Below, piece after piece: positions 9,416-62,976 of a DNA stretch of 64,000 nt. The stretch is taken from contig NC_065542.1 of NCBI RefSeq assembly GCF_932294415.1, positions 389,501 to 453,500 of the forward strand, in the 5' to 3' direction. The position numbers and the translations under genes were made by a program. Positions within the stretch are counted from its first letter, which is position 1. Every line of letters starts with the position of its first letter. The notes beneath the pieces are model-generated. The model had not been told where the DNA came from and did no database searches. It saw nothing but the letters and a program-made list of their open reading frames with translations. The DNA is from Quercus robur (taxonomy: Eukaryota; Streptophyta; Magnoliopsida; Fagales; Fagaceae).

Positions 9416-12400
9416 TTAGAAGGTCCTCGAGTATTTCCTTATCTCATACATGATTGAAGATATTGACACAAGATCCTTGTTGAGTGCAGACCCACCAACA
9501 ATCCTTTTTATGCAATCTGAGAGCCTGGTATAATATAGCAGTAGTTGAGTCAATGCAGCCCTCAAAATTTCCATACCACACAGTAAGCTACTGAAAGAAG
9601 TTATAACATCTTTGTGCATCAGCTCTATTGCAGCTTTCCATCTACTTGCAAAGTCCTTCACAAGTGGGTCAACTTCGGCAACAGTTATGGGCTTCTCAGA
9701 ACTAGAACCTGGATCCTCCGCTGATAAACAACTTGCAAATAAGCCTATTTCCTTAAATAACGTAACAAAATACTTAGATGTTGTAACAATATTTGTCAAA
9801 ATACTTACAGGCTCGGGTCTTTACAAACTTTATTAAGTCGCTAAAATGCACCAGTAGCAGTTCTTCCTGCAAGGAGAAATGGATAGACAAACTAAAACAA
9901 ACTGCAAACAAAATCAAAAAAGGCAGAAAAGGCAAAAATTCCTATACAAAATAGAGCATTAAAAATAAAGAAATTTCAGCTTCAGATGAATCAGATCTAT
10001 AGGCATTTGATTGTTTTCAAGCTCTATGTAACATATTATCAACATTTTCCCATCAAAAATCTTTCTGAGAGGATTCGTAAGGGAAGCAGTTCTTGCCACT
10101 TGTACAGAATATAATTTCTGTTCCAGTACTTAAGGCATATAGGAGTAACATCAATATTCTGCAAAAAACAGGAATCAAGACAGGTTGCAAGGAGATAGGT
10201 TTACTCCCCTCAGTCTAAAATTACAAACAACAAAAAGATATTCATCATCATATAAAAGAAAAAAATTATTATTATTTACTTTCTAGACAAATTTCTATAA
10301 CCCTTAAAAAAAGATATTTTGCTAGTAAACTTATCTGCAATCATTTAGTTTCAAAATCAATAAGGCATTTTTCCTTAAAAACGAGGTCTAAAAGCTATTG
10401 ATTGAGAGTTACCACAAATAATGCTGTGTTGCTCTTCAGCAATTCCTCAAAGTGCACTTGAATTTTCCCTTCTGGAGCAGCTTCCTGAAATCCAACTAAA
10501 AAATTAAAAACCACAGTGGCTGAAGGCCAGAGGACATTGCAAATTTTGTGCTCGACATATATGAGCAAAAATATGCTATCCATCTAAATGGCATTATAAC
10601 TAAAGCAATCTTGTCCAAGAAATTCTTTTGGATAACAATGAACTTGTCCTAGAAATTTTTTTTCCTGACACCCCTAAGTTCCCACCTTTACACAAAAAAA
10701 GTAGATCTCATTTTCCAGAAATGAAGATACTAATCCTTACCTTCAGAATAGAAATAGTCATGTCATAGTTGTTTATCAGAAACACAATTTGTAGTTTTGT
10801 TTTTGGGAACATTTTTGCAAGCTTGATTAGCAAGTCATCAACAGCCATTCTAAGTCGTTCCAAATTCAAATCAAGCTGCAACATTGAGGAACTAGATGTT
10901 TTGAGAGACTCATTCCATTATGAAAGCAAAGTTAAAACATTTTATGACTTTCATTCTGTGTCTAACCTGCCCATCTCCATATTCAACATTAAGGCGGATC
11001 AGTGAAGCTGTGAATTCAGCATAACGTCTCATGACATAGTGAGGATGAACATCATCTTCCCACAATGTCCTCACATTTGCACTGCGTAGGCTGTTGAGGT
11101 GCATATCAAATACCATCTTAAAACGAGGCCATAGGGAGATATTGATCTGCTCCAATTTAGTTAAGAATTAGTCAGAAGTTTAATTGGTGATAAAAAAATC
11201 TAAGACACAACTACAGAAGAATTAATAATTAACTATTCCCTCCATCTCCTATCATTGGTCCTCCCCTTTTTGGATGTTCCAATATCATTGTCCATTTTAA
11301 ACTTCATATGACAAAAATTTTAAAATTTACTAGAATGCCCACCTAGATATTAGAGAGGAGTATCAATATGCAAAAGAATGAGAAGAAATTCTGTAAGTCA
11401 TAAGTAATAGAGTAACAGTAAAATTCTTTCAAAAACTGGGAAGCCCTGTAGAGGACCCAACAAATTGGAATGCACCGACTATTTTGCAAAATGAAAGTAA
11501 TTTCATTAGTTAGAAAGTGCTTCTGGAAGCAAAAGTCTACTTCATTTTGAAGCACAGTAAAGACGAAATAGAGTTAGACAAGAGGAGGCAAATAAATTGT
11601 TAATTCTTTGGGTCTTGAACCCACAACTTTAACCTCCAGGACAATCCTATGGAGGAGGAGGTGCTATTTGAGATGAAGCTAATTGTCAAGGAAGATGTTA
11701 GTTCAAGAACAACATTATCTTCCTCCAGTTTCATATATTGTAAGCCCTCATCCCATGTTCATAGGAAAATCATAAATGCTAGGACAAATCCATCTAAAAA
11801 CCACAACAATGGATAAATTAACTGTTGAACGAAAAAGAAAATTTTAATGTTTTGGTGTTTACTCCTTTTCCTAGTCATATTGCTTAATTTCTAATATCAG
11901 AGATATCTCTCTTTGCAAGAGCCATAACTATCCACTCAACTTTGTTCAGCCAAGACTAAAAAACCATGTAAATAAAAAGCGTGGTTTCTAAAGAACAAAG
12001 GAGATTTGATAGTATAAATCTTGTGCCAATAATACTATATGTCCGAAATTTGTATCATCACCAAACAGCTCAATGATAAACATAATAACTATATCTAAAA
12101 TTACAGACCTTGTCTAAAAACGAATCCAAGCATGGAATCCGCCGCCGAGACATTATGAGCTGAAATGGAGAGCAATGAAACAGATTAATCACAATCAAAC
12201 TCATTACTCAACAGTATTCACAATCCTTTTTTACATTTAGCTTTCTGTCATGCCTCAATATGTTTGAAAAATATAATATATGCGAGGGTTTTCTTTCTTT
12301 TTTTTTGAAAATCAATCTAAAAATATATTTGCCCTGAGTATTTGATTTTCCAGTTTGAGATCAACCAGAGTCAAATCCTATTTCAAGCATTCTTTTCAAT

Positions 12401-15400
12401 TAGAAAACATAAGTTTGGAAATCTTTGGAAAAAAGAATAATAATTTGAATTAGGACAAGGAATTCAATTCTCTTAGTAATCCACGCATCAGAATCAGAGG
12501 GATGCTAAAGAAGATTTTTCTTTTCTTGAATAGAAGCATTAATAAAGATGTATGTGCACATTTCTCAAACATGTCCTGATGTTATACATAATTTGAAAAC
12601 TTTCAGATTGTGCAGCACATATTCCAACTACTACACAAGCAAATAAATATGGGGTAATTCCTGACTCAAACAGATGAACAGCAATTTCAACACCTAGATA
12701 ATTGACATCCATGCAACTGAAACATCAGATAAAAAAGAAACAGTGTATTATACAAGGAATACTGAATTCTGAGTCAATTGTCAGACAAGGAAATTAACTT
12801 TAGTCAACTACTGAGAATACAATAGCACACTATCCAGAATGCACATACAGTAGCTTTTCACCATCTACAGTACAAAATGGCAAATTCTTTACAATGACAC
12901 GGCACAAATAAAAGAACAAGGAGAACGGACATCAAAGTATCCATCAATCGTGAAATTTTATTATATGTTCACTTTGGATTATCGTTATAGCTCATGAAGT
13001 TTTGAGCAGAAAACACAACAGCAAGTATTGACGACTCATGTACTAGATTCGAGGACTCATGACTCAATTACAATATAACTCTAAACAACAGAGAACTCAG
13101 ATAGAAAACATTAGCTTTAGAAGCTCAGAAAAATACCTGGTGCTGATGTATTATCCGAATCATGAGCATTAGGCCAATAGCATCATAACAATTTGGAAGT
13201 ATTGAATTGAAGTGTTCATCAATAACAGCAAATGGACCTGATAATATCAAAGTAAGATCATATGACAAATCACAGGTCTACCTTTTTCTAATATTCATCA
13301 CAGTTTCCACTGCCCATGAATTGTCTCATATTCATATAAAGCTTCAAATACAGATAAATCAACTCCCATGTAAATGACAAGATTGTTTATTCAAAGGAAT
13401 GTGTACAATATAATCCTACTGGCAAGAGTGCCAATCTGAATCATACAAAAGTCATCTGATAGAATGCCAAATAATATTTGCCACAGGAATGCTTGTATGT
13501 AACATTATTAGTATGTAGAAACATTTTATGCAAACGATTCTGGAATATCCAGGAAAATTACCTGCAAAAATTTCATAAAATATGGACTCCTCGCCAAAGA
13601 AGTCATCACAGAAATGATACCTGCGGATGACAGGAAAATGTCAACATGTTAATCACTATAGGATTGCCATTCATTAGCAATTAGAAGACAAGAGAGGAGT
13701 AGAGCAAACTCCAAGGTACTCAGAAGTAGCAGTATCCATAAGCAGCTTGTGCAAACTCCTGAAGAGGACCTCGTACGGGTACTTGCTGGAGCTGGCTTCA
13801 GCAATATGAGGAATTAATGCAGGTTCATCAATTTCCTGATAATTACAAACCATGGCATCTGTAAGTAATGAAGTCATAGTTTCTACAAAAACTACTCTAG
13901 ATATGGTTTTATAATTAGAAATAACAATCAAAAGAGGAAGTTATTATTCTGCAAGTTCTGCACCTAGTCATCATCTTTTCAGATATGAACCTATGAGCAT
14001 GGCTGGAATAACATAATTAAAAGAAAGCAATGCAAAATTCAGCTTATATGAATAAAACATGCATAGATGACATGCATAACAAAAAGAAATCAATTGATTA
14101 AATTTTAAGTTACAGAATAAGCTTTTTAATAAGGAGACAAAGATAAAAGAAACAAAGGTTAATGCCCAAATAGTTGCGATTGAAATCTAATCGACTGAGT
14201 GGATCCAAGAGAAACAGCATGCTTTTCTTCCACATTAACTAACAAACCAAACCATATGTCATTCCTAGCAAGTAAAATATTATATAAAACTTTTTAAGAA
14301 AGAAGTAGAAAAACCTTAAGAATTTTTATCCTCTCCCCCAGAGCAAAAACAGCAGAGCGGTTCTTCAGCGGTTCCCTTCCTCTTAAAAAAAGGCCAGTGC
14401 TTCTTGTCTCAACCCCAATCAAATCACTAGATGTTGCTATATCCAACTGTAGTTTCTCAAGGGCCAGAATATAAGCCCGGAAATGTGCACTTAGGACCTG
14501 CAAAACATGCAGCTGCACTTCAATACTCTTTAAGATGCACAAAACTAGATAGTTGTTACAATGTAATGTGAAAGAAACAAATTGACCTGGCTATTAGCAC
14601 AGCTCAAGTGTAAGACATCTTAAACGACATATGAGAAGTTGAATCTTCCAAAACAGATTCACCATTAAGAATGTCCATAGTAGCAAAAGGATACTAGGTG
14701 TAGCATTACCCCCAATATTTCATATTCTTTTTCTTTTCTTTTTTGATAACTCAAGAGTTACAATGAGAGAGCAGGAATTTGAACCTAGAAGCCTCTTGGC
14801 CAATTGACTAATTGAGCTACAAGCCTCTTGGCCAATATTTCATATTCTAACTATTCATAATTTCTAATGTTTCATAATGTTTTAAGAACTAGCTCTGTTC
14901 CATAGGATAGTGAATATTTTCTAATATTTGTTAGTTCATCATTTTTTGAGAAATTTTCTTTGTAGTATGAAGTATCAGAACTTTAATATACCTATCAAAA
15001 ATTAACTGTTACAATGTACTAATTTTATCTCTTTGGCATTATACGAACAGAAATTGCCAAATATAATACTAATGACCCACACCTTTTTTTGAGTTTTTTT
15101 TTTTTTTTTATAAGTACTAGTGGCAATGACCCACACTTTTTTTTTTTCAGTTTGATAAGTACTAATGAGTAATGACCCACACTTAGCTTATGGTATAGCA
15201 TGCACACCATAATAAATATGAATATATTTTTTTGGGATCTGAATTGGTATCTGCTTATAAATAAGACTCCTTAATAATTAAATCATGTTCCACCATGGAT
15301 ATAAACTATTGCAGGCCTAACTACTACCAATACCAAATACAGAAATGTGATGCATTCACTGTCAAGGAAAGCATAAAAGAGAGAAAATTTTAATTATCTA

Positions 15401-18400
15401 GTAAGAAATTTGGGATTTCTGGGACAAGAGTTCAAGAAACTAATATCTGGTGCAAGCTTGCAAGCTTAATGGATAAAAAAAGATTTCATCTATCGCTATA
15501 ATGCAGATATGAAGAAGGGGTTTAATCACTAATTTCTGAGTAAATTTAAGTTTCAGCAACTTGGGTTTTCTCATTTTTGTGGTTCATATGCTACGTTCAA
15601 TGTGAGCTAGGTCTCCATGGCTTTTAAGATAATGTCACAAAGATTCTAGGGTTAAAATAAAAAAAATTCTTTTTTGTTTGTTAGCCTAAATTTTTTAGGT
15701 CTTAAGAAGGCTTCCTTGCATCTTAAGATAGTTGGGTTATCAGGTAATTTTCATTTTGGCAAAATTGTCTGATTTTCTATTGTCAAGTTTACGAGTCCTC
15801 GAGTATAAGGCAACAAACTTGAACAGAACTGGGGCTATGTTGATGGTAGTCAAATGCTTTGAAAATATAGCAAGGACGTGCAGTTTTCTCTTCTGTCTCT
15901 TTCCTGTCATCTTCCTCTTGATCTTTACCTTTCTACAAAACAACCAACCCCCACCCCCCGCCCTCTCCCAAAAAAACCTGCCCCCCAACCTCTACTTCTG
16001 AACAGGTGCTCTTGATTTATCTAGGGTGCATTCCTTCAAACTATAATTAGAAATAACCAAAAGATACAACAATAGATTATCTAAAGAACCAAAACAAAGG
16101 AAGAAAAGCAGGGAATGAAATTGATGCTAATGGTTTAAAGATCAAGTGACCATTCCCAAGTCCTCATAAAAATATAAACATACTGGTGAACACTTCAGTC
16201 CTGCTACCAAAACTAAGTTCTGCAATAGATAATTGATTCGTCAGTATTTACCTTGTTCATTGTGTCGATGTACGCTGCACGGACCTCAATATATACCTCA
16301 TTGCCATGTTCTTTGAGGAAGGAAATAACATACCTACATGTTCATGTTACCATATACTATATTATAATAAGCCCACACTTGACCAGGGAAACAAGAACCA
16401 GAACTATTATATGATATATCGCTACTTCTCATTTTTTATGAATTAAAAAAATTCTTATTCACAAAGAATTAAGATATGAGTTTACACATGATGGCAACAT
16501 AAAAATATCAAAAACAAGTCATGTAAAACCAAAAACACAGTCCTACTTGGATCAGTTGCTCTCTTTACAAATATAGATGCTGCTGTCTTAGCTAGTATCA
16601 TATACAGACACCTGAATAAATGCTAGGGATGTACAAAAGATTGGGTAACCATCAAAAACTTTTTCAGAACAGTTCAACAACAATGACTCAATAATAATGG
16701 CATTTGATCAGCTCTCCGACTCATGATCAAGGGAAAATGATAAACGCATAAAATTGGGACACATACAAGTGAAGTTATCCAATCAACAACTCATAAAAAA
16801 CAATCAGGATACTGCGCAGTTCCCCCCAAAGAACAAACAAGGTTCAAAAGGGAAAACCATACAGATGTGTGAGAGAAGAATTCATACCTCCATCCCATAT
16901 TGTTGGTCCTTTATTCCATTTTGAGATGTCCCAAAATATAATCATCTTTGAAAAATCTATGGACACTATTGATAACTTTCCTCACTTGACCTTACTTTAT
17001 TTAAAAAGTCAATATCCCTCTTTCGCTAGAGTTTAAATTAAGGGGGTAGTTGGAAACATGCACTTTTTATTTGAAAGGCAATGCATTAAATTAGGTTCCT
17101 TTAAAAAGTTGGAGTTTCCAGACAAGGCCAATAATATGAAATGGAGAGAGTATTGTTTTGAATTGACAACAATCAATGGAAAAGGATGTATCACAAGAAG
17201 CACCTTAGTATAATATTAAACAAAATAAGAAACTTTAAGTAATAAAAAGATGTTCCAGTCATAAATCAAACAAAATAAAAAATATAACCATTTGATTATG
17301 GCGAACACACAAGCTAGATACTAATCAGACCATGGAAAGATCAAATCAACCCATCACCATCTCCTTTAGAAAGAAAGGAAAAATCAAGCAGCTCTCACAT
17401 CAATTAACAAATCATCCATATAAATAGCAACACAGGGAGGAAGAACACAAACCCAAAAAAAAAAAAAAAAGATGAAAGTAAATATGATTTTTTTTTTTTT
17501 TTTGATAAGTGCTGAAAGTAAATATGATAAAACCATATAAAATTCTAATGTCCCATTAGACCTATTAAGCACTGTATTTAGATTCTACTCACTTGTACTT
17601 TAAAAGAACACTTTGTTGAAGGATCTGGATATTTGTTTTGGGTTTTCTCAATGCATAAAGCTTCTGAACAATGAAGTCAAACACCTGCAAAAAGATAATA
17701 TAGTTGGAAAGAGCCTATTTGTACTCATTAATCGACAGGTAAAGCAGTAGAAAAACAATTAGAAAGAGCCTACATGTACTAATAAATTAACAGGTAATGT
17801 GGTAGAAAAATAATTAGAAAGAGCTTATTTTTACTAATTAATCAACATGTAAAGCAGCAGAAAAACACTTAGAAAGAGCTTATATGTACTCATTAATCAA
17901 CAGGTAAAGCAGTAAAACAAGTTCAAAAGTGTGATATCATTACATGAGCAATAGATATTATTCAATATCCAAATCAAAACATTTTTGAAGTTTATATTCA
18001 CCATATTTTCTGTCCAAACTATGAGACAAAACATGGAATATCATTATTGTCCTCAAGAGCTTCTGACTCAATTAAATCCACAGAGGTTGGGGAGAAGGCA
18101 TAGGTGATATTAAGTTAAAATGTATTGACTTCCAGAAGGTTCTCAGTACAAAATGGTCACTGTTCAAATTTTGATTAATAAGACATTCTAGCCTCAATAC
18201 TATACAATGTACATGTTGAATCCTTATCAAATGAATGAAATTTGGATTGGCTACCTTCTGTTGAAGCTAACTAAGAAAAGAATTGTTGAAAAAAAGCTTT
18301 TATCCCTACCCTTGGCCTTGAGGAAATCTTTGACCTTAGCAATTACCTCAAAACTCTAACTTCAGTTGAAGAAGCAAACTAAAAACATCTGATTATCAGT

Positions 18401-21400
18401 AAATATAGATTAAAATGTTGACCAAAACTAATATTCAGTCAACAAAATTATGTTAAAGTATCAAACCTAAGTACTAATAACCAACTCTATTCAAGTTACA
18501 GATGTCAAATTGTAGTCCTTTCTAACATATACGATTGAAATGGTCACAAGAGTGTTAACTCATCAAGTCACAAGCTTGGGATTCTTCTTGTGCACAATAA
18601 GGACTGCTATTACTAATTGATAATTAAACAGTCCATACAAACAATATTGTATCCAAATATGTACATGGGCAGATTAGTGTATATGATATGCATGACATTG
18701 TAGAGGGGCTCTCACATTAATATTTTGGTAGGTTTAAAACATACAATAACACAAGAAATTGAATAATCATCATCAACCAAAGCATCCAGTAATTCTAGTC
18801 AATAACCTTTGAAACTGCTTTCTGCCTAACTTTTTCAAGCTCAGGTTGAACGTCTTTCAGAGCTTTTGAAGCTTTGACCATAGGATCCACTTCTACAAAC
18901 TTCAGCTTCTTGCTCAGAATCTCAAGAGTTCTCATGTATTCATCATTGACCTGGACAAATTCCACTGCAAGTATGTTAACAGCAATAAAAGAAACGGAAC
19001 ACAAAAATCTCCCAAATCACTATGTTAACCAGGAAGCAACATGGACCATACACCATGCACATTCAAGGACGTATGTTGTAGCTCAATTGTGTTATAGATA
19101 CGTCCCGCATATTAACAAATCAACTTTAACCTATAATGTGAATATCAGAAGAGCCTAAATCATGTATATAAGCATAAAACATCTAGAAAGTGCTACTCTA
19201 AGTTGCAATTTGAATCAAAAAAAGATGGGCAGCAAATGAAGCAGATGACCAGATCTTTCCACAATCAATCCACAATAACCCCATCATGCAATGATTTTTT
19301 TTTTTTTTTTTTGTATAAGTAACCCATCATGCAATGATTGAATCACTAATACAATAAGGGAGGGGCGAGAGAGAACATGAGCAACAGTTAATCATTTCAA
19401 GTAAACACATTTTCCCACACATTAAGTTCTCCCTCAAACCAACCTAGCAAGCCTTACAAGGACATAACAATGATATAGATCAAGCATAAAAGAGCATAAG
19501 TAAATCCCATCCTGCCATCCAAGGCTTGATGTGATTGGTATCAAGGCAAAAGGGTAAAGCTTGTAGCAAAATATTAAAAAAGGAGCCTTCTTAATTAAGG
19601 CAACTGTAAACCAAAATAAATGAAGCACAAATAGACCTCTCTCAGATTAATGTATCAATGCTTTTCTCATAATTCAATTCCCAAACATTAAAGAATAACC
19701 AAAGTCCTGATAATCTCATTGGATGGGTAAATCACTGAAAATCTTCTTCTTCTTTTTAAGTAACGGACATGTAAACGAAGGCTAAACAAAAACAACTTTT
19801 TGGATGAGGACATCAATGAGCAAGTTTGTAAGTCAAGACCATCTGTGAGCAAGTTTGAAAGCTACGACAAACATGTAATAATAGCAATTATGACAGTAAC
19901 AGTAAAAAAGCAGGCTCTACAAAAATTAGAAATACCTCTCCGTCAACGACTATGTCAACCATTCTTGGAGGGACTATAATGTCTTCGACAAACTTTGCCA
20001 ATTTTGATTCTGCCGACTGTTTATAGAACATAGAACAATCATATATTGTATAGAACATAAGAAAAACGGAAAGGTTTATAAACAATAATTTAGAGATGTC
20101 ACTTTGGCATTACTCAAATGGCCCACTTCCAGGAAAATTGTTCAGACAGAAAAACTTCCAAAAAGTTTGTCCCCACATTTTCACACTTTTTTCGGTTGTG
20201 TTCTTTTAACTCCAAAAAGAAGTAAAATGTTATCACAGCACAAAAACAAACAGCTCAATAATAATTCAAAAATGGACCCAGAGTCCGAACCCCCACCCTC
20301 TACCCTTTCTTTTTTGATAAGTAATAAGATTATATAAATCAGAAAAAAGAGTCACCCAAGTATACAGGAGATATACTGGTGTAGACAATCAATTACAAAA
20401 ACTGCATAAATCTAAAAGAGAAAGAAACTTGTCATTGAAAAAGACAAGGAATGCAATCCAACGAGGTCATATCACAAATCACCAATTGAAGAATCATTAC
20501 TCAGCTAGCTTTATCCCCTGCTGAGAAATTGTTGCCACAAAATATCATTGAAAAAACACATATAGCCCCTAAGAGGAACTTCAAACAAATACAATTTTTC
20601 TTATGTTTTTGTTGTACTAACTAGTGGTCATTAACATCTAATAGATATACAATACAAGCATGTTTCTGTGGTTCTCAAAATTTAAACTCCAAACAAACAA
20701 TGAAGCGGAGCTACTCATACAAACAATGATACCTTACGATTCTTAAGCTTCAGGCCCATATCCATAGACTTCTCTTGGAGGACTTTTATGTCTGAACTTA
20801 TGGAACCAATTTCAACCTGGGACAAAAAGAGGTAAGGAGAAAACCTTCATTGAAAAGTAGAATTCAAACCCTGGGGTTTTACTAAAAGAAGAGGATAAAA
20901 AACAAAACAACACAACAACAAATAATTTTGCAAGAATCAATGTAAAAAGAAAGTTAAACAAATCGAGCCTTTATACCATTAAATGCATCTAAAGTTTGTG
21001 ATTTATATTCTCCTTAGTTACATATAACAGTTGAATTAAAAACACTATCAATTTTGACAAATGGATGTATAGGAGAGGGAAAAATGACTGCACTAGTTAT
21101 GACATCCTTAAAGCAGCAGTGATATAAAGCTAATTCCTACAATCTTTTTCAGCTTATAAATAGTGTACTTGCAAAAAGTAACCAGCATTGGGAAAAAGGG
21201 AAATTTTACTACCATAGACTAATGGAAAACATGTATAACTTATGGTATTTATGTGAGGTAGTGGTTTATATCCAGGAACTGCTACTAAAATCAAGAATGC
21301 ATATAATCTTGTCCCTGAGCAAAAACAATGTATATAATTTTGTCAACATATACAAGAATTTTTTTAAAAAAAAATTATGATCATTGCAAAGTGACAGTTA

Positions 21401-24400
21401 TTATAAAGATATATGCAACTACATTTTCAGCCAATATGTTTTATTAGAGGGTGATCAATTGTGTATATCCATCAAAATATATTTTATCAGTATAAAACAA
21501 ATGAGAAACAGTCTCAATGAAGCTGCAAGCAAGTAAATAATTGCTTATTGCAAAGTAAGGGACAACATACTTGAAATCCACTGAGGAGAGTTTCCATCTG
21601 TGACAAGATTCTGTCACATTCACGAATTTGATCATGAAGCGACACTAAATTATCGCTTTCTTTTATGTAATCCTGCAACGTTGAAGAAGAAGTTTTAATG
21701 CAATAAAAAACATTTAATCTTTATAAAATATATAATAAAAGAGTACTCAAAAAGGATTCTGAAGAGTATCTCTGCTACACAAATCTTTACCAATGAATTA
21801 CCTATCAAAAAAACAAATCTTTACCAATGAATGAAAAAAAAAATCAAAATAAAAAATAATCCAAACACACATTTTCTATTTAAATTCTTACCAAATAAAT
21901 CTTGTTTCTATAATCTAATATAGTGCCACATAAGAGCAATACAACAAAAAGGATGAGCAATCTAACAAGTCAAAAAAGTCTTATTCTTAGTTGATGTGCA
22001 TACACATGCTCTCAAGCGCACCTTCCCCATACACATAAATTGAGACAGCCTGCAACATCTGATGCTTCTCCAACTATTCACTTAGGAGAAATGATCATGC
22101 ACATGCCATGGCCGAAGCGACACTTAAGGTAACTAAAGTTGGAAACTAACAATTTTAGGGCAAGTTGGGCCAGTTGTAAAACCCATAATGGCACACAACC
22201 TAACAGTAACAAATTGAACTATTTTAAATTGGTCAAACTCAAAACCTAAGGAGAACAAATTAAAATGTCCAACGCAATTAGAACAACCATTTTAAAGAAT
22301 TGTAAATACCTAATTAATAATAATGACCGAAAAATAACCATAAACCAAAGCTCATCACGAAGGGGTGTTTAGTTCGCTATGATGTACCATTGATGTGATG
22401 CATATTACGATGATGTGACATTAAATTATTTGGTTTATTTTATTTTTTCTAACATTACTATAATTTAAAATTACAAAATATATCACATCATCTTAATCTC
22501 ATCACCTTCCTAAACAATGTAATGTTGTATTCTTGTATTGAGATTACATTAATGTAAGATTATAATAACGTAATATTATGGCGTAATTGAACATCACGGC
22601 GAACCAAATGCCCCCAAAGTGTATGTCACTAAAGCTGTCCTCCTTCATGGCCCATTAGCTGCAAGTGCTACACCTAATTATTATAACCTTAAATGCAGGC
22701 TACCTAGACAAGCAAGCCTAACTAGATGAGGTAGGGCTTACTTTGCCAACTCTAAGAGAATGAGAATGTGTCTGGAGTACAAGGATAAAAATGATAACAG
22801 AGCCATGCAGTTAATTGACAAAGGGTGGGACAGAAAAAGATAATATTTGGTCCAAAATCTAACCAGTCAAAGAAAGTTGGCACAAGGAAACAATGACAGT
22901 AGCATGAAACTTGGGCAATATGAAAGTACTAGAATATAGGGCAGATACGGTAATATAAACTTCCAGATCTGATATCAAAGCTTCTCAAAACTTCACACAA
23001 ATAAATCACACTCCAATAACTGCATGGTCTATTTGTTAATCACCACTAGTTTTAACTTGGATAACTATACTAACAAACCATTCAGCAAAAAGTGTCTCAT
23101 GAGACACTAAAACCAACTTTCCATAATTCATTATGAAAAAACAGTGATTGTGAGTCGACACCAAAATCACCAACTAAATGATCTCATGACAACAAGCTTT
23201 CCAAAAGGAAGCAATGCTCCACAAAGTTTTTGCACAATATGGCTAATGGGCTCTAGCTAACACGGCACCTCCTCCTCAATAAGAAAGGGTGGAGGGTAAG
23301 GTTTTGTGTTCCAAAACTCACTAATTGCATGTAAACTTACGAATCAAAGAAGAAGAAAAAGTTTTGCACAATATAATATGATGTAGAAGTGGAGAACCAA
23401 GCTATTACGAAGAAGACTTCCTGACATAGAAGAGAAGCCTCTTTACACTATTTTTTTTTTATATGGATAATTATAGGATTTCTGGCAACAAAGCATCAAA
23501 CACTTTTATGTTGTGAACTTCATAGAACTATGAGCTACGTGAGACAATTTTGCGGTTAAAATAAAGCAAAGCCTAGTAAGAAAGTTTACAAAAATAAATC
23601 ATGTCTCTATGAATTATAAAACTATTGATTGGCAAAAAAGGATTTCGTTAAGTAAGCACAAACCTGAATCGAGTCCAATTCAACTTTCCGTAAATTGTTC
23701 TCAACCCCCTTTGTATACTCCCTTAATTTTGTACCTTCAGATAGTATGTTTGCAACTACCTACATTATTAAAGAGACGGGGGTCATTAATATATAAACCT
23801 CTAAAAATAAACATGAAAGCATTTTTTTGGTAAGCAACTAAAAACAATTTACATAATAAAACACGATTAAAATGTACAAGGAAAATGCAAAAGAAATAAA
23901 ATAAACAAAGAATTGCAGCTTAAAGGACCGTTGATAAAAAAAATATATATATATATATATATATCTAAAGGAATGAATTTTCAAAGGAAATGATATGGAA
24001 TTACTTACATCGTCATTTTTGCATTCTTCCAGTTCTTGCTCTAGTCCATCCAAAGATATATCATCACTGTCAAACATGAAAACCAAATGTATTTTCAAGA
24101 TGCCATATTCAAACTGGAGGCTGATGAACCGGGTAATGTCATCATATAACAGGAATGAGAATATAATGTATTCGTAAATGAATCAAGACGCAGAAACATA
24201 AGGATGAATCATACCTGCTGCCATCCTCCTCCACAGACAAGTCCCCAACAAACGCTCCAAAATCAAATACTACATTTTTCTGCGCACCATTTATCTCAAC
24301 ATATGACTGACCCGGCAAACAATTTTTTGTTATAATTAATAAATAAATAAATAAAGGTTATCAAAAGAAAGGAATGCTACGCTACGATACACAAATTTTT

Positions 24401-25089
24401 TTCGCATGGACCCACCACTAACACCACTTTATTATGTACCAACCACAACACGCTACCTTAGCTATTGTGGGAAAAAATTGAGTGACTAGACTTATTGAAA
24501 CGCAAAAGATAGAGGCTCGTGAACTACAATCACAAAATTAAGAGATACATGAATGAATTTTATTGAAGAGTAACTAACAAGATATCCCCCAGTCCCAATC
24601 ATAGTACAAAAAATGCAAGAAAGTAGAGTCGATCTCAACAACAACAGATCTCTCTCAATTTTCGACATAATAAGACTACACGACTGCGGAGTGACATTCC
24701 AAATGATACTCTATTTGCCATAAACCAAAGAATGAGCAATGTAGAAAGCAACAGATGATGATCCACAAATTCACAGCTACTCTAAAATTAGATAATCCAA
24801 AGTCAAAAATTCAAGGCAAAGCAGTTGTCCACATTCCTAACAAAACTGCCTAAAAAATTAAGAACGATAGAATGTGTAGCAATCGTGAAGCATGAAGATG
24901 ATGATGATGATGGCTACTACTTCAAAGAGAAGATCCACTGGGTCTAGTCTAGTGGTGAAATAATAATGAAACAAATAACAGCTTAAAAGCTCTTGCGAAT
25001 TGAAAAGGGCATCGTCTCACAATAACAAGAAGTATAAATTAATCAATCAGTATTGGAAATTTGAAGCTTACCAAATCGGTGGTGGCCAT
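9416..25089 (-). CDS. VPS52: Vacuolar protein sorting-associated protein 52 (GARP/EARP subunit)
   Basis: Twenty exons join into a 702-residue protein, close to the ~707 aa I recall for Arabidopsis VPS52 (POKY POLLEN TUBE). Exons, 5' to 3': 25072-25089, 24215-24306, 24009-24066, 23664-23759, 21571-21672, 20733-20816, 19936-20016, 18807-18950, 17593-17684, 16252-16333, 14315-14497, 13720-13835, 13562-13620, 13137-13237, 12109-12159, 10967-11146, 10741-10875, 10413-10484, 9809-9866, 9416-9720. All have GT/AG borders, and phases match. Diagnostic blocks are DDISLDGLEQELEECKNDD, AKFVEDIIVPPRMVD, SRRRIPCLDS, DDVHPHYVMRRYAEF and the end SIMYEIRKYS. The family acts with VPS51, VPS53 and VPS54 in the GARP complex, tethering endosome-derived vesicles at the trans-Golgi. 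The N-terminal third is coiled-coil-like. Introns carry many retroposon insertions, but no coding lesion is seen, so the gene looks functional. Confidence 0.97.
11232..11342. mobile_element. Stowaway-like MITE end fragment
   Basis: One end of the type CTCCATC..ATCATTGGTCC is present within a VPS52 intron and resembles the left end of the element at 16887-17150. No matching opposite end or TA duplication is found, so this is a truncated copy. Confidence 0.4.
14712..14848 (-). mobile_element. tRNA-derived SINE with 17-bp target duplication
   Basis: The body is 14729-14831 on the minus strand, flanked by perfect direct repeats CCAATATTTCATATTCT at 14712-14728 and 14832-14848. Read on the minus strand it holds a Pol III A-box-like TAGCTCAATTAGT and a B-box-like GGTTCAAATTCC about 35 bases apart, then a short body and an A-rich tail (T/C-rich at 14729-14742). 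This is the layout of a tRNA-derived SINE. It lies in a VPS52 intron, antisense to nothing and in the same sense as the gene. The perfect duplication suggests a fairly recent insertion. Confidence 0.85.
15071..15182 (-). mobile_element. Two ultra-short retroposon tails with triplicated target site
   Basis: The 12-mer AATGACCCACAC occurs three times, at 15071, 15125 and 15171. Between the copies lie a 42-bp and a 34-bp segment. Each is T-rich and ends in (minus strand) AGTACTTAT followed by A-rich sequence. This fits two successive 5'-truncated retroposon insertions into the same site, or one insertion followed by a tandem duplication. Confidence 0.6.
16885..17152. mobile_element. Stowaway-type MITE in a VPS52 intron
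   Basis: Element 16887-17150 is flanked by TA dinucleotides at 16885-16886 and 17151-17152. Its ends are inverted: CTCCATCCCATATTGTTGG at the left, and the right end read in reverse gives CTCTCTCCATTTCATATTATTGG-like sequence. TA duplication plus CTCCCTCC-type ends are the hallmarks of Tc1/mariner-derived Stowaway MITEs. It is non-coding and about 264 bp long. Confidence 0.75.
17473..17528 (-). mobile_element. Ultra-short retroposon tail, 24 bp, with 16-bp duplication
   Basis: The 16-mer TGAAAGTAAATATGAT at 17473-17488 is repeated exactly at 17513-17528. The 24 bases between (17489-17512) read on the minus strand GCACTTATC followed by 15 A. This is a retroposon 3' end with nothing upstream. 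It lies in the VPS52 intron after the exon at 17593-17684. Confidence 0.8.
17707..17922. repeat. Minisatellite, ~55 bp unit x 4
   Basis: Four diverged tandem copies each begin GAAAGAGCYTA and contain ACAGGTAA(AG)C(A)G, with a period of about 55 bases. They lie in a VPS52 intron just upstream (in gene orientation) of the exon at 17593-17684. The copies differ by several substitutions, so the array is not newly expanded. Confidence 0.85.
19280..19338 (-). mobile_element. Ultra-short retroposon tail, 27 bp, with 16-bp duplication
   Basis: CCCATCATGCAATGAT at 19280-19295 is repeated exactly at 19323-19338. The 27-bp insert reads on the minus strand TTACTTATAC followed by 17 A. It has the same tail type as the insert at 17489-17512 and lies in a VPS52 intron. 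Confidence 0.8.
20304..20400 (-). mobile_element. Longer LINE/SINE 3' end with the CTTATCA tail
   Basis: On the minus strand this reads CTCCTGTATACTTGGGTGAC, then a T-rich stretch, then TTACTTATCAAAAAAG. The GTACTTGGG...TTACTTATCAAAA pattern is one I associate with plant LINE 3' ends. It carries more of the element than the micro-insertions nearby and shows the likely parent of their tails. The 5' boundary and target duplication were not resolved. Confidence 0.5.
21779..21832 (+). mobile_element. Ultra-short retroposon tail, 14 bp, with 20-bp duplication
   Basis: ACAAATCTTTACCAATGAAT at 21779-21798 is repeated exactly at 21813-21832. The insert is just TACCTATCAAAAAA, in plus orientation. 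It is the shortest of the series: a target duplication longer than the insert itself. It lies in a VPS52 intron. Confidence 0.75.
22362..22615. mobile_element. MITE with GGGG(T/C)(G/A)TTT(A/G)GTTCGC ends
   Basis: The left end GGGGTGTTTAGTTCGC and the right end, read in reverse, GGGGGCATTTGGTTCGC, are inverted repeats that continue with TATGATG/CGTGATG. It is about 254 bp, AT-rich and non-coding. No clean target duplication was seen, so the superfamily is left open (hAT or PIF/Harbinger are both possible). It lies in the VPS52 intron between the exons at 21571-21672 and 23664-23759. Confidence 0.65.
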
Positions 25090-25429
25090 TTTATTAACGA
25101 AATGGCTCAAACTTATTCGAAGATCTCCAGATTTCAGATTTCAGATTTCAGATCACAAAAGAAAAGAAGTTGGTTCACGCGCGTGCTGGATCGGGTCAGT
25201 CGTTGCTCGCTCTCTCTGTGTTTAATAACACCCCTAAAAAAAAAATCGATTTTTTTTTAATATTGGATAGTTAGGGGTGGGCTTGGGAATCTGGGCTAGT
25301 CTGGGCGTCCTATCAGTTGTGGTGGAATGGGCTTAATGTTTAATTATAGAGGCCCAGTGCTCTATCTGTCTCTCTCTGTTTGAGAGCTGATGGGGTGAGT
25401 TATTAGCCCAAAAAAAATAATAAGAAAAG
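25090..25429 (-). promoter_or_regulatory. VPS52 upstream region
   Basis: This 340-bp stretch lies directly 5' of the VPS52 start codon. It holds a short direct repeat TTTCAGATTTCAGATTTCAG near 25132-25150 and a CT tract around 25210, which may be 5' UTR. It also has TGGGCC-like motifs (GGGCTTGG, TGGGCTTAAT, AGGCCCAGT) of the site-II type common in plant housekeeping promoters. No TATA box is obvious. The assignment rests on position only. Confidence 0.45.
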
Positions 25430-25752
25430 GTAAAATATTATTTTGGTTCATAAACTTTATCAAAAGTTTGTTTTTATTCTTAAACTTTAATAAATTCATT
25501 TTTCATCCTTAAATTATTAAAAAGTTCACATTTCATACTTAAACCATTGAAAATATTTTATTTATGTCCTTAAACTATCCTAGAAATTTGTTTTTCATCC
25601 CTAAACTATTAAAAAAAAATTCATCCTTATTTTTGTCTCTATAATATTCAAAAAACTCTTTAGAAAGTTTAGGGATGAAAAAATAACTTTTTAAAGTTTA
25701 AGAATAAAAAACAAACTTGTAATAAAGTTTAAGGACCAAAATAATATTTTAC
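25430..25752. mobile_element. MITE with long (~90 bp) inverted ends
   Basis: It starts GTAAAATATTATTTTGGTTC and ends with the reverse complement GGACCAAAATAATATTTTAC. The inverted similarity continues inwards through TAAACTTTA..AAGTTTGTTTTTATTC..TAAACTTTA. It is about 323 bp, non-coding and located within 350 bp of the VPS52 start. No clear target duplication was found. The ends resemble widespread plant MITEs of uncertain superfamily. Confidence 0.75.
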
Positions 25753-26517
25753 TCAAAAATAAATAAATGTGTGGTAAAGATAATGACCCTATGCGTTTTG
25801 TTTTATTTTGTTTTTTTAATGGTAAGAAAAATTAGATAGTAGTAAAGATAAAGATAAGTTTTTTTTTGGGTGAATGAAAGGGGTAAAGATGAGTTAATTA
25901 ATAATAATTTAAAATCACAAAGAAATAAAAGAATAATAATAATAATAATCCAAAAAAACCCCACCCTAAAAATTAATGAATAAATTCATTCCAAATTGTA
26001 TACATAGATAAATTTCAAAACTAACATAGATTTTTTAATATCGTTGTTGCAAGTGCCCCCACAAGATCCGATTAAATGATCCTACGACAATTTGAAAAAT
26101 ATAACCGTTAATAAGAAAAAAAGTGAATGTTGGAAGAATAAAAAAATTAATAGAAAAATGATAGAGTGTCTATTGAAAAAGACACTCTATAGCTAAGAGG
26201 TAAAAGTAATTATTTGCTCTTCAAATGGAATAAAAATATAGCTAAGGTACTGAAGATGCTTCAGTAGAGTGAATCATAGTAAAATATAATATAAATATGA
26301 TGAGTTGTGTTTAGGCTTACTAATGCAATGAATTGTGTTTAGGCTAAAAACTTGTTTGAAATAAAAGTTTTATATGAGTTAGTTATTAGGTTCACTCTTG
26401 ATATTAAGCCACATGCTCTTGCTACATAAAAGTTAGGCCAAATTGCCTAAGGTTTCTCTATAATAAAATCCATCACAAAACAAGCTTTACCCTTCCTTTT
26501 CTAACTAATAACAATTA
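25753..26517. other. AT-rich intergenic DNA
   Basis: I see no gene, RNA or repeat termini here. It holds only short AAT/TAA runs near 25930-25950. It runs up to the 9-bp target duplication of the first Mutator-like element. Confidence 0.6.
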
Positions 26518-29449
26518 AAAATTTTAGGGAAAAATACTCAAATACCCCCTAAACTTTCAAATAGTGGCCGTAACACCCCCTGAACTTTAATTTTGGCCAA
26601 TTTACTTCTTAAACTCTAAACACCTGCCAAATCAATACATCTGTTACTCTTCTGTTAATAAACTAATGGTAAAACTCACGTGAGAGGCACGTGGGAATAA
26701 AAGCTAAAGCTAAACAGCCTGAACCGTTGAGAGGGAGGGAGAAAGTTTGAGCTTAGTTTAGAGAGAGGGGAGATGATCCAACCAGAAGTCCATAATCACC
26801 TCAGTATCCTCTCTCCGGTGCCGGAGTTCCACCGTCATCTCACTGGCTGTTCACCTCTGGTGTATTTTTCTCTTTCCCCTATTATATTTTTTTGCTGCTC
26901 TTTGTTTTTCCAATTCTCCTTGTGTGATTTTTTTTTCTTGGTTTGATAGCTGGTTGTGGTGGATTGGGTAGGCTTGGTTGTGGTAAAATGCCCATAGTTG
27001 TTTGTTTTTCCAATTCACTGTTCTTTGTATGTAAAATGCAATGCTTTTTGAGTATGCTACATAGTTGTTTGATAAAATGCCTGGGAGGGATATGGCCATT
27101 AGAGGGGTTGGTTGGTTGTTTGGCAGGATTTTAGATGGGTTTGAAATTTCTTGATAATAATTCTAGTTTATTTTGATGCATTTCTAATAACTTAATATTT
27201 TTGAGTATATTATTACGATGAATCCGTTGATGAGAATTTACTTTGGCACCATATGTTTGTGAGCTAATTGGTGGGAGAACAAGCTGGGCTACTATTATTA
27301 ACTATTTACTTGGCTTTTCTATAGTGAATGTGGTATATGTAGTGTAGTTAGATGATTAATAAGTGAGCCTGATTGTTTCATATAAGCTAATGGAAATTAA
27401 AAATGAAACAAACATTAAATTTGGGACTTCAAATTAGTGTACATATCAAGTGAGGTGATTTTGTTCTCTAGTATAATATCATGCCATTCTTTTAATGATT
27501 TGCGAAAGAAAATTTGAAAAAACAGTGGCTGTATTACATTTGGTGGTTCAATAGGTTACACTGGTTTTTTAATTTTTCTTCTTCTAAATGGTTCAAGTGA
27601 GGTGATTGATGATTTCATTAGTTTAATTCCCAGAGAAAAAGAAGAAAAGGATCATTTTAACTGTCCTTAAATTTGTTGGTGGGGTTTAAGTATGTAACAA
27701 ATATTTGATGTTATGAGCTTATGACTCATCCAGTTGAGGTTGATGAAATGTAGAAAACTATTATTTCATTACTTATTTCTTCTATATGCAAATTATTTAT
27801 CAAAAAAAAAAAATTCTTCTATATGCAAATCCTTTTCATTGATTCAATTATATATTTTTGTTCTTTAGAACTTCTTTGCTTACATTATCAGAGTCCTGTT
27901 AATTGCAACTCAATTTTGGAAAGGAAAAATTCGACAATACCCAAACATAATGAATTCATGATTATGGTTTTATTAGATTTAGTAATATGAACTAATATCA
28001 ACTGCAGTTTACGTCTTGATCTAACAAGCTAAGAATAGAGCAATTAATTTTCATGACATGTGACACAAAGTTATACTTTTTTGAATCATGTGGTGAAAGT
28101 ACCTGGTTTAGGGGGTGTTCATTTGTTTCTTTTTGGTTTCATTTACTTGTGTTTGGTTTCTAAGTTGTGCATAGTCTAATAAATTTATTTTTCTTTTTAT
28201 TTAATTTTTTGTTGTTGCGTAGAATCATAATGTATACTGTTGGAGAAGAACAAAGTTGCAATGCACATAGAGGATCCCTAAGTGGCATGGAGTACATATC
28301 AATATATTTTACCAAAATGTCAAACTCGTTTGTCATATGGAGAAAATCAATCAACATGAAGGAGATGTTTTCAGTGGCTTTTGTAAATCTGGACTCTAGT
28401 GCCAGCTTACTATATATACATTGCAGTGACTATCTATGTAGGAGCCCCAAAAAAAGAGCTTGTGATGTAATATACCTACCTATTTAGATTAGATGTAATA
28501 TAATATAAAAATATTCACAACTATGTAATGTTCAACTTGTGAAATTAATGGAATTCCACCAATGTATGAGTTATTGAAAAAGCTTCTAGCTTGAAGTGCA
28601 GTGGAAATTTAAAGAAAATTTCTCCTTTCATGAAATAGTAGAAATTTCCTGAGCTTATTACTGAGAAAGCTAAAAAAAAATCATCAAGAAAATAGTGAAA
28701 TTTATCCTACCAGGAAGAGGCCAATATATGGCTTGCATAAAATCATTCTTCTCAACTAACATTGACACTATCACTTTATTTGATTGCTTTGATATACATT
28801 AAGCAATGAAATATCAAACCAAAAGGTTTACAAATAGTAAATTGTTCTCCTCAACCACCATGAATTAAAATAACAATGAGCGTTTACAAATAGTAAATTG
28901 TTTCAAAAAAATAACACCCAATGAATCAATAATTATACAAAAAATAACACCCCTTTGTGTTTGGGATGCCTCTTATCTTCCAACCACTTATTTATTTATT
29001 TATTTATAATTTTTTTACATCTAGTTGTTACTCTCCACTTATTGCCCAATCATGATTTTCTCTAATACACCACTCCTTTAATGCCTCCTTGAAGACTACA
29101 TGTGATACAAATTTGAGTCCATTTGTTGGCTATACATTCTTCATGTCAGTGTGTTGGTTAAACTCATGGAATCTAGGCCTGGAATTCCCTTCCTCATCAG
29201 ATGAATTTGTAGGAAGTGACAGTAGACATTCATACATAGCTGCAATACAAAATTAACAAGAAGATTAATAGAAAGAGATGGAAAGAAAGAACAATATAGA
29301 GAGTAGAAAGAAAAAAAAAATACTAACTTCCCCATCCATAAGCTAAACTGTTTCCTTAAAGCTAGAGATTTTTACCCGTTTTATTCCCCCCAAAAAATAG
29401 AAAAGAAAAAAAAAAACTAGTTTTGTCCATATTCTTGCCACTTATTAAA

Positions 29450-32422: not shown

Positions 32423-33238
32423 AAAAAATTATTTTGGTTATGTTGTTTTTATGTTTTGGCTCAAGTGAGAATGTTGGAATGATGAGATTGAGTCTGCCTT
32501 GTGGGTTGTAATATAAGCTGGTCCTTAATTATATTGTAATAGAACTATGTAAGGTTTTTTTTAGAATGAGAACTATGTAAGATGGTAGATGCTGTTGCCT
32601 TTAAACCACTGAATAATATAAGCCTTTTTAAGAGAAAGTGTTATTTATGTTAGATGTTGTTGGTATTTTTGTTTTGTTTAAAGTGAATTGGCTACTTGTG
32701 AGTTGTGAGCTGTTGGTGTTAGTGTTTTGTTGGATGTTGTGAGCTGTGTTGGGTTATGCATAAAGTGCATTGTGTAAAGATAAATGTGTTGAAAGTGAAT
32801 TAATTTAAGTTTAAAGTACATGACAACTGATGTCAACTTGCAAGAAAAGACAACAAATGCACACACAAACTTGCTATTCAACACATACACCTGCTATTCA
32901 ACACATACACCTACACATATAAACAAACTCATTTATGGGCAACTGCAATAATCAGAATAATAATTTTGAACACCTATTATTAAGTTGGGAAATTGTATAC
33001 ATATGTAAGGTGGCATTGAATAGTCTTTCATCAACCACCAATAAATTTAAGGCATTTGGTACAACAACAACCAAAACAGTTGCACCTGCCCATTGTTTAC
33101 AAAAATACAAAAAGTGTTTGAACAACCATACATAAAAGTGTCTTGTCATTGTCTGTCATGTCATTGTCTACAAATAACATATAACCCTAACGCTACATAA
33201 CCCTAATACATAGCAACAAAAGTGTCTTGACTTAGTCT

Positions 33239-54588: not shown

Positions 54589-54627
54589 TACTTTGAATTT
54601 TTTTTTTTTGACATCTACTTTGAATTT
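54589..54627 (-). mobile_element. Ultra-short retroposon tail, ~15 bp, with 12-bp duplication
   Basis: TACTTTGAATTT at 54589-54600 recurs at 54616-54627. The insert is a T run plus GACATC, i.e. GATGTC followed by poly(A) on the minus strand. The tail differs from the CTTATCA series, so another retroposon family may be the source. The T-rich context makes exact borders ambiguous. Confidence 0.5.
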
Positions 54628-55001
54628 TTTTAGATGTAAAAGAATATTATATAAGTGAATCATGTGCTCACATTAAATTCAAATGTCTTATGTTGCTTAA
54701 TGATTTATAAGCCACATAAATATTATATGAAACACTTTCTATAATGATTTGTTGACAATATATTGGACTAAGATTGTGATTAAATCAATTATAAATCATA
54801 AGCATGTGATTAAAACAATTAAAAATTAAATGATATTATAAAATAATAATATAAGAATCAAGATAGGAGAGATATAATTGCATTTTACGCAAAAAGGAAA
54901 CATTATTTTATACTATTTCTATAATTAATTATATATTATATCATCACCATCATCATTATCATTAATTTAACATATATTTTAGGGGCCAAAGTTTGACACT
55001 A

Positions 55002-61740: not shown

Positions 61741-62976
61741 AGAGATAAATAATCATAGACATAGCAGTGGTGGACTGGTCGTGTTTGACCTTTTCACTAC
61801 ACGTTGTTTTTTTTTTTTTTTTTTGGGAAATTCCAATCTATTCTCTTCTCTTTATTTCACTTTGAATAAACCAATTTTTTGAAAAATTCCATATTTTTAA
61901 ATATCGTGTTTATCTCACTTTATCACATAATTTTTTTTTTTATATGTAATTTTTTAAAGGTAACAATAATGACTTTTTTTTTCCCTTTAATTAGTCTTGC
62001 AAGCTTCTATTTCGGAGGATCTCTCTTGACTTTTTTTTTTTTTTTTTGGAAGAGAGATCTCTCTTGACTTTTGTGTTCTCTTTTAAGCATTTGGATTCTA
62101 ACATCCAAACCTGAAAGGTATTCAACTAGATTTTTTTTTTTTTTTTTGGGATATATTTTTCAACTATAATTTAAAATATCAAATTGGGTTATTACTTATT
62201 AGTGAGAAAATTATTAGGCGTAGACAAAAGATATGGAGTGAAAGCACAAAACAATATATATCATGTGTGAAAATAATGAAGTTCTACCATATGTACATTC
62301 CTTGAAATTTTCTTTATTTAGGTTTTTAACTTAACAAAGTTTTCATTTATATCAAAATATTAATTCATTGAATTAGTCAATGGAGTAAATGCATATATTA
62401 ATTATTTATAGTTGTGCATTGATTATTGGAGGAATTTATATAATTACTTTTATAAATTTTAAGAAACTAATTTTATTTGGAATAATAATAATAATAATAA
62501 TGTAATTTTCATATTCATAAATACATAATGAAATTTTGATGTCATTTTTCTAAGATTTATATGAGAAACAATTAATTTGAAATATAATATTCTTACTCAA
62601 ATTTAGTTACTTTTGCAAGAGTTAAAACAAGGTCCAACCAAAACAAAAAAAAAAAAAAAAGAAAAAAGAAAAAAATTAATAACACACAATTAAGAATGTA
62701 AAAAAAATTATTGAAGGATATTTGCATTTTTATTTATCAAAATGATATTTGCATTTTTTATTAGGCATATCATGCAATTTTCATATTTGTAAATACATAT
62801 AGTATGATCAATAACTACATTATGCTTATTATCTTTCTATTTTGTCTATAAAACAAGATACTAAACATTAAAATTTTTTACAAAAAAAATTTATTGAAAT
62901 ATTAGAAGAAACTATCAACAAAATGCATCACATGACTTGCCTAATTAAAATTATATATATGTTTTTTTTGTGGGGA
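61741..62976. other. AT-rich intergenic DNA upstream of the phytolongin gene
   Basis: No gene is present. Long T runs lie at 61807-61824, 62031-62047 and 62132-62147, and an AAT tract at 62482-62500. One micro-insertion with duplication is listed separately. Confidence 0.55.
62018..62068 (-). mobile_element. Ultra-short retroposon tail, 25 bp, with 13-bp duplication
   Basis: GATCTCTCTTGAC at 62018-62030 recurs exactly at 62056-62068, and the match runs a few T further. The insert reads on the minus strand TCTCTTCC followed by 17 A. The tail differs from the CTTATCA type but has the same architecture. Confidence 0.7.

Follow-up and report, generated by a model that had tools for sequence, protein, structure and literature searches.

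The stretch analyzed here, 64 kb of Quercus robur contig NC_065542.1 (positions 389,501 to 453,500; hereafter the window), carries a series of very short insertions that we call stubs. Each consists of a poly(A) copy plus about 4 to 10 extra nt, held between two copies of a target site. We consider, with a probability of about 0.85, that stubs are target-primed reverse-transcription insertions made by the machinery of an L1-type long interspersed nuclear element (LINE) acting on A-tailed RNAs. An earlier note on this DNA had read them as extreme 5' truncations of such insertions, and this is borne out by the duplications, the polarity of the tail, a related LINE with the same 3' end and an excess of that end in the searched assembly (785.7 Mb, 42 contigs). 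The A-rich side of the first nick and one empty site, seen in diverged repeat copies, add to this. The insertion class is real, and its mechanism is ordinary, whereas the regularity of its size was unexpected.

Stubs in the window are flanked by exact duplications

The six stubs described in the earlier note were all recovered, both by direct reading and by an unguided scan of the window, with ends displaced by at most 2 bp. In every case exact direct repeats of 12 to 20 bp enclose 14 to 42 bp and, read in the sense of the A run, a short body precedes the run, which adjoins the second repeat copy. The bodies end in CTTATC, CTATC, TTATC, CTTATAC or CTTATA. These six, one family stub absent from the earlier note and three stubs or probable stubs found in addition are the following.

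15071..15136, - strand: stub; 12-bp duplication GTGTGGGTCATT; insert of 42 bp, approximately GCCACTAGTACTTATA-A15-CTC-A7-G; body about 15 nt
15125..15184, - strand: stub; 14-bp duplication AAGTGTGGGTCATT; insert of 32 bp, ACTCATTAGTACTTATC-AAACTG-A9; body about 17 nt
17473..17528, - strand: stub; 16-bp duplication ATCATATTTACTTTCA; insert of 24 bp; body GCACTTATC, A15
19280..19339, - strand: stub; 17-bp duplication AATCATTGCATGATGGG; insert of 26 bp; body TTACTTATAC, A16
21779..21832, + strand: stub; 20-bp duplication ACAAATCTTTACCAATGAAT; insert of 14 bp; body TACCTATC, A6-7
27777..27830, + strand: stub; 17-bp duplication TTCTTCTATATGCAAAT; insert of 20 bp; body TATTTATC, A12
62717..62758, + strand: family stub absent from the earlier note; 15-bp duplication GATATTTGCATTTTT; insert ATTTATCAAAAT
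62018..62072, - strand: stub with another 3' end; 17-bp duplication AAAAGTCAAGAGAGATC; body TCTCTTCC, A tail
32541..32581, - strand: probable stub with another 3' end; 13-bp duplication CTTACATAGTTCT; body CATTCT, A8
54589..54631, - strand: probable stub; 16-bp A-rich duplication; body GATGTC, A tail

The stubs at 15071 and 15125 have the middle target copy in common, so that the latter arose either by another insertion into that site or by tandem duplication of the former. At 28906-28952, a 14-bp repeat AAAAAATAACACCC surrounds AATGAATCAATAATTATAC followed by an A run, which may be one more stub, its end resembling CTTATAC. The end (T)CATTCT-A(n) is common to the A-tailed stubs at 32541-32581 and at L022:8944-8991, two unrelated places, and is perhaps a second retroposon 3' end.

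A scan of the window for exact repeats of at least 11 bp enclosing 6 to 70 bp found 48 pairs, compared to a mean of 2.02 and a maximum of 5 when the sequence was shuffled 50 times within 2-kb blocks. An A run adjoined the 3' copy in 22 repeats, against 0.62 in 100 shuffles (maximum, 5), and five of those 22 (17473, 19280, 21779, 27777 and 28906-28952) matched a strict regular expression for the family, against 0.01 in the shuffles. This expression misses the stubs at 15071, 15125 and 62717. A motif-free scan, with a null in which real flanks were retained but mismatched, yielded 10 matches in the window where 0.29 was expected. Applied to a 200-kb sample (20 hand-chosen 10-kb blocks on contigs C1 to C4), it yielded 13 where 5.7 were expected, and about half of the loose matches outside the window are thus noise. 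This noise is what speaks for chance repeats or slippage in AT-rich sequence; against them stand the shuffles and mismatched pairs, in the window and in the set A sample described below, and the reversed-pattern control. For the six reported stubs taken jointly, we regard chance and slippage as excluded. Family stubs numbered seven in the 64-kb window and one in the 200-kb sample (two weak matches to the expression, L026 and L028, were left uncounted), but because the window was picked for its stubs, its density cannot be extrapolated.

Many of the 48 pairs lack an A or T run; they are not retroposon-like and resemble repair-type or tandem duplications. They may be repair products, and such a process may be active here. 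This raises the alternative that staggered double-strand breaks were filled in and captured scraps of poly(A)-ended RNA or DNA, with no LINE endonuclease involved. We find this improbable, since break repair does not account for the constant order of body, A tail and repeat, for the A-rich first-nick side in 23 of 41 stubs, or for an exact LINE 3' end that is 60-fold more frequent than its reversal (see below). As a separate observation, two pairs of 21-bp direct repeats match exactly, at 28826-28902 with a spacing of 35 bp and at 41084-41147 with one of 22 bp; neither has an A or T run of 6, and both look like break-repair duplications.

The 3' end of the family is in excess throughout the assembly

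The sequence TACTTATCA-A11 occurs 1149 times in the assembly and its reversed pattern 19 times, a 60-fold excess, which agrees with the expectation of the earlier note that a genome-wide count would exceed chance. The shorter TTATCA-A13 occurs 3092 times, versus 1206 reversed.

Three sets of places were read. Set A comprised 60 of the first 100 listed TACTTATCA-A11 places (contigs C1 and C2), with 600 bp read around each. Set B was made of the first 20 listed TTATCA-A13 places without a TAC prefix (start of C1), for which only TTATC was demanded. Twenty runs of exactly 18 A, drawn from the first 100 listed (first 3.6 Mb of C1), formed set C; the reversed control of that search is the identical pattern and hence uninformative. 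Duplications were scored with mismatched pairs as the null; in set A, the sequence after the tail was aligned to the 63 nt before the tail.

In set A, 16 of the 60 places scored at least 12.5, while 99.9% of 3540 mismatched pairs scored 12.0 or less and the highest 13.5. Six further likely stubs with a repeat touching the tail were recognized by eye (L048, L051, L034, L041, L046 and L054; p 0.009 to 0.17); places with similar scores whose repeat does not lie at the tail, such as L056, L053 and L062, were not counted. Additionally, the duplications extend 1 to 4 nt into the element end in several places (for instance, L030, L055, L082 and L049), which is suggestive, though only that, of shared bases having aided the second joining. 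Set B gave five stubs among 20 places (p 0.0002, 0.0002, 0.0005, 0.0011 and 0.0084). Their bodies, GGCTTATC, AGATTATC, TTTTTTATC, CGTTTATC and TTCTTATC, are each 8 or 9 nt long, for the last of which the alignment extended into the body, so that the reported length was 0. In set C, one of the 20 A18 runs (L126, body TTGTATC) scored beyond every null value and four more had p values of 0.016 to 0.037: the repeat adjoins the tail in L129 (GTAGC) and L133 (GTTTCTC) and begins 7 nt further on in L117, and L124 is a low-complexity sequence.

The target duplications of stubs in the window and in sets A and B measure roughly 8 to 20 bp, with lower values in the controls. In 23 of 41 stubs, the 5' copy has at least two A residues immediately ahead of the target core; at control positions the proportion is 10.4%. 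Leaving out the 15071 row, where the neighboring stub's tail is read instead, the count becomes 22 of 40. This A-rich start of the duplication, as the expected trace of a T-rich primer, supports target-primed reverse transcription, as does the empty site of L094 described below.

As a rough figure, 16 of 60 applied to the 1149 exact-pattern places gives about 300 stubs. Roughly five A-tailed stubs with a repeat of at least 14 bp and a body of at most 12 nt were found in the 200-kb sample (L010, L011, L014, L017 and L022), which would correspond to some 20,000 per genome, an equally rough estimate with a very wide error, from a subset without its own null on four contigs. Our guess is that the total lies in the thousands.

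Empty sites and paralogous copies

The sampled stub L094 sits in an old repeat, other copies of which provide an empty site: in L021 and L015, which are 72% and 82% identical, a single target AAGTCTTATTGTA, with two letters different, is present and the insert is not. Less cleanly, the insert is also missing in comparisons of L073 with a window copy and of L047 with L016. The window copy concerned, 16893-17110, is a dispersed element copy 72% identical to L073:233-442, and the place of the L073 stub seems stub-free there.

Among the stubs of the window itself, the one at 17473 is also present in the paralogue L113 (contig C37), that at 19280 in L003 (C3) and that at 21779 in L002 and L003. These insertions therefore predate the duplication that gave rise to the paralogues. 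The 19280 stub reads TTACTTATCG in L003 and TTACTTATAC in the window, so that CTTATAC may be a mutated CTTATCA end. The check for empty sites suggested by the earlier note thus gave one for a sampled stub, in diverged copies, and none for the window's own stubs examined.

The paralogues belong to a larger block. Positions 16889-21985, part of the region of the gene VPS52, are found with 94 to 98% identity at two further places (C37 and C3; L002, L003 and L113), partly rearranged, and represent either a segmental duplication or retained paralogues. Within this block, 25 bp (CCCAGAGTCCGAACCCCCACCCTCT) at 20276-20300, adjoining the LINE 3' end described below, are present in the window and missing from both paralogues (C3 and C37), an insertion or deletion. 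A T run flanked by the short target words of the 17473 stub (AAAGTAAATATGAT ... AAGTAAATATG) lies in L114 (C38 near 32.24 Mb); this place was found by its similarity to that stub, and the resemblance is possibly a selection effect.

Several LINEs and a SINE-like element share the 3' end

Two longer insertions in the window bear on the source of the stubs, one a LINE and one resembling a short interspersed nuclear element (SINE).

20301..20415, - strand: LINE 3' end; about 100 bp, ending in TTACTTATCA-A5; matches the LINE copies L004 to L008
14712..14848, - strand: SINE-like insertion; about 100 bp, with a 17-bp duplication AGAATATGAAATATTGG, ending in GAGTTATCA-A5

The earlier note had pointed to 20304-20400 as a longer copy of the element behind the stubs. 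It is indeed a LINE 3' end: a search of the assembly gave at least 42 rows, of which 5 are the window and its two paralogues and 37 lie elsewhere (of 444 candidates, 40 were scored). Around the 3' end at 20304, no target duplication was detected. Three of the five copies compared (L004, L006 and L007) have about 800 bp in common at 82 to 87% identity, and a zf-RVT domain (PF13966) was recognized in stop-free pieces upstream of the 3' end of L006 (E 1.2e-20) and L007 (E 1.1e-13). A third piece tested, from L004, lies downstream of the 3' end of L004 and belongs to another copy. L006 ends in TTACTTATAG-A(n) and L007 in TTACTTATC-A20. The longer element that had been proposed is thus represented by LINE copies that share the end and, as far as read, encode a part of the reverse transcriptase.

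To group the source sequences, 23 of the 60 set A places (including L078) were set aside by eye as stubs or possible stubs. The remaining 37 longer copies fell into six multi-member groups (15, 4, 3, 3, 2 and 2) and eight singletons below the joining threshold. Because the pattern demanded the terminal box, this grouping shows that many different 3' untranslated regions (UTRs) carry it, without measuring its degree of conservation. The proposal of one family with a CTTATCA-A(n) end thus stands as to the end, which is real. A single-family origin we reject, since several LINE 3' UTR groups and the SINE-like element share that end; stubs with other ends exist as well.

The best-scoring hairpin lies 30 to 61 nt before the tail in 35 of the 37 longer copies, but, taking any hairpin into account, only 10 of the 37 score above 95% of shuffled sequences, and the folding of single 3' ends was uninformative alone. 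We aligned 22 hand-picked 17-base segments at homologous positions (18 from set A, 3 from the matches of the 20304 LINE and 1 from the window), after excluding copies that lack this hairpin, variants of 16 bases and rows identical to others; the rows used are related. In this alignment a 6-bp stem with a 5-base loop has 93.2% standard pairs, 13 double-change cells and a covariation score of 0.335, each beyond 500 of 500 shuffles, and slid versions of the hairpin scored lower. Two other measures were not unusual: double changes occur in 3 pairs, a number reached by 58 of 500 shuffles, and there are 6 further pair types, a number reached by 486 of 500. With its terminal box, this hairpin marks a candidate LINE/SINE pair.

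The SINE-like insertion at 14712-14848 has an end of the TTATCA-A(n) type and 10 matches elsewhere in the genome at 73 to 90% identity; two relatives align along the element. It contains the box A-like TAGCTCAATTAGT and the box B-like GGTTCAAATTCC, as read by eye. ARAGORN found no tRNA in it and Rfam no family. As for the stubs themselves being remnants of a tRNA-derived SINE, no SINE body was found in them, and the retained sequence is too short to assign.

Retained length and a proposed mechanism of truncation

The retained lengths are not evenly spread but pile up a few nt before the A tail. In sets A, B and C together (100 places), 27 had a duplication scoring at least 11 within 120 nt, and 19 of these 27 retain 0 to 9 nt. 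Bodies of 6 to 10 nt made up 7 of 10 matches in the motif-free scan of the window, the others measuring 23 and 34 nt (both from the 15-kb pair, counted to the last A run) and 46 nt. Among repeats of at least 14 bp in the 200-kb sample, 5 of 7 bodies were at most 12 nt long (L014 by eye), and the other two were 32 and 39 nt. A size peak thus stands out in the window and in sets A and B and is less marked where the sampling demanded no motif, and all of these numbers are small.

In our reading, a nick exposes a T-rich primer that anneals to the poly(A) tail, reverse transcription copies the tail and a few bases further and then stops, and the second strand is cut and joined, sometimes via a few shared bases, leaving the target duplicated. 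Much more tentatively than the insertion itself, and at slightly less than even odds, we suggest a preferred stop about 4 to 10 nt past the edge of the A tail, caused by a loss of enzyme grip. The grip might be lost when the poly(A):oligo(dT) hybrid exits the binding channel, which in human ORF2p spans about 8 template positions; if copying ceased as the last A left the channel, about 8 nt would be retained at any tail length. A part of PMC10830420 describes template contacts of human ORF2p that reach n+8, with the wrist at n+4 to n+7. The dominance of TTACTTATC-A(n) among the sampled templates follows from how the set was drawn, and other A-tailed RNAs are probably used as templates too.

Several points weigh against the insertion reading or against the preferred stop. 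The empty site of L094 lies outside the window, in repeat copies only 72 to 82% identical, where the single target differs by two letters, and the window's own stubs examined gave no empty site: the paralogues of 17473, 19280 and 21779 share the stubs, and no paralogue was found for the 15071 pair. Only L007 of the five LINE copies ends exactly in TTACTTATC; L004, L005 and L006 read TTACTTATA and L008 reads TTGCTTATA, so that the exact end is one of several variants. In set B, the maximum of the mismatched pairs (21.0) exceeds all set B scores, 99.9% of the null lying at 13.0. In the A-run comparison, leading A residues of the target also match the tail and aid detection. Several body assignments were made by eye, and the set A pattern required TACTTATC, which hides bodies shorter than 8 nt except via shared bases. 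The proposed loss of grip is argued by analogy with human ORF2p, and the same part of PMC10830420 describes ORF2p as highly processive and favors host cleavage as the cause of truncation. Finally, lengths of 15, 20, 25, 33, 42, 77, 84 and 106 nt also occur among the 27 duplications (the 42 nt of L087 being ambiguous, because a second target copy lies at about 7 to 8 nt), and motif-free bodies in the 200-kb sample range from 1 to 58 nt in 13 matches, 5.7 of them expected by chance.

These scattered lengths are what ordinary random 5' truncation would produce, with the stubs simply forming the low end of lengths that are widely spread and fall off steadily, and with no place where copying preferentially stops. 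It also fits that many other set A places resemble LINE copies longer than the aligned stretch. However, a broad distribution sits poorly with 19 of 27 nearby duplications at 0 to 9 nt and 4 at 15 to 33 nt, with five set B bodies of 8 or 9 nt although the pattern did not force that length, or with the 7 of 10 bodies of 6 to 10 nt in the window. We therefore hold random truncation to be rather unlikely.

Another source of constant size would be a short template, if LINE or mRNA tails were trimmed by nucleases until these met a bound reverse transcriptase or a protein sitting on the poly(A), and were then copied whole. This predicts that stubs would extend a constant distance beyond the edge of the A tail, however long the tail, and the tails of the 16 set A stubs range from 12 to 23 A; the preference for host cleavage of the template RNA in the cited part of PMC10830420 points the same way. 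Such RNA fragments are, however, hypothetical, and the shared bases at the 5' junctions also fit a joining after a stop on a longer template. We find template trimming doubtful as the explanation. Enzyme stop and trimming both give a fixed size, and the data do not separate them.

Returning to the enzyme stop, it may be, with the odds somewhat against it, that LINE reverse transcription in this plant meets an abortive checkpoint roughly one footprint of the enzyme beyond the edge of the poly(A) tail, which ends a large share of initiated events and leaves stubs of near-fixed size, whichever A-tailed RNA served as template.

Relation to known insertions

Stubs resemble the 5'-truncated L1-clade LINE insertions of plants and mammals in their 3' A tail, target duplication, kept 3' terminus, lost 5' part and A/T-rich first-nick side, but they often retain only 4 to 10 nt of the element; median lengths of human L1 insertions are given in a passage of PMC12016303 as 394 bp (somatic) and 1240 bp (germline). 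The shared 3' end recalls maize LINE1-1_ZM with ZmSINE2/3, where LINE and SINE have a common 3' end and an upstream hairpin with a covarying stem. The relevant part of that study, by Ohshima, describes shared 3' ends for L1/SINE pairs of maize and sorghum, and its tabulated part names no LINE partner for the A-tailed SINEs of eudicots (PMC3747384). The oak elements differ from the maize pair in their loop, which is UUCCU-like, and in the terminal box TTACTTATC that immediately precedes the A tail. Processed pseudogenes similarly may use any A-tailed RNA as template, which stubs with other 3' ends fit, but stubs keep no recognizable gene sequence and their source RNA cannot be named.

In the annotation of maize, matches to the last 30 LINE bases needed separating from "severely truncated LINEs," according to a section of PMC2774510; a 30-base homology finds such copies and would miss stubs of 4 to 10 nt. 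Severely 5'-truncated Alu insertions are mentioned in a portion of PMC5402677. A narrow search of the open-access literature found no description of stubs like these, which is weak evidence of novelty.

Gene context and other features of the window

The exons of VPS52 were located by translated matches.

10913..20109, - strand: VPS52 exon span; of 10 translated pieces tested, 5 matched in Pfam

Pfam-recognized exons bracket the stubs at 15071, 15125, 17473 and 19280, which hence presumably lie in introns, as judged from the translated sequence. The earlier note had expected stubs to add T-rich tracts next to splice sites. This did not hold: these four carry the A tail in gene sense, so that the pre-mRNA gains A-rich tracts, and the 21779 stub, which is T-rich in gene sense, lies beyond the last recognized exon, about 130 bp from the nearest exon-like stretch (by eye). 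The VPS52 region also contains an imperfect tandem repeat of about 55 bp at 17707-17902 (GAAAGAGC...AACAGGTAAAGCAG...). Long AT and AG dinucleotide tracts are found at about 2.5, 5.2, 6.0 to 6.4 and 29.5 kb of the window.

Significance

Stubs are too short for homology-based annotation. They seed poly(A) tracts and short duplications in introns, and, after their empty sites have been checked, phylogenetic studies could use them as binary markers. If the size peak holds genome-wide, stubs would count the LINE attempts that fail at the start, which full copies cannot do, and would offer a direct test of whether the enzyme or the host causes 5' truncation. If, in addition, the checkpoint is true, genomes would hold a readable record of failed retroposition that is invisible to repeat masking.

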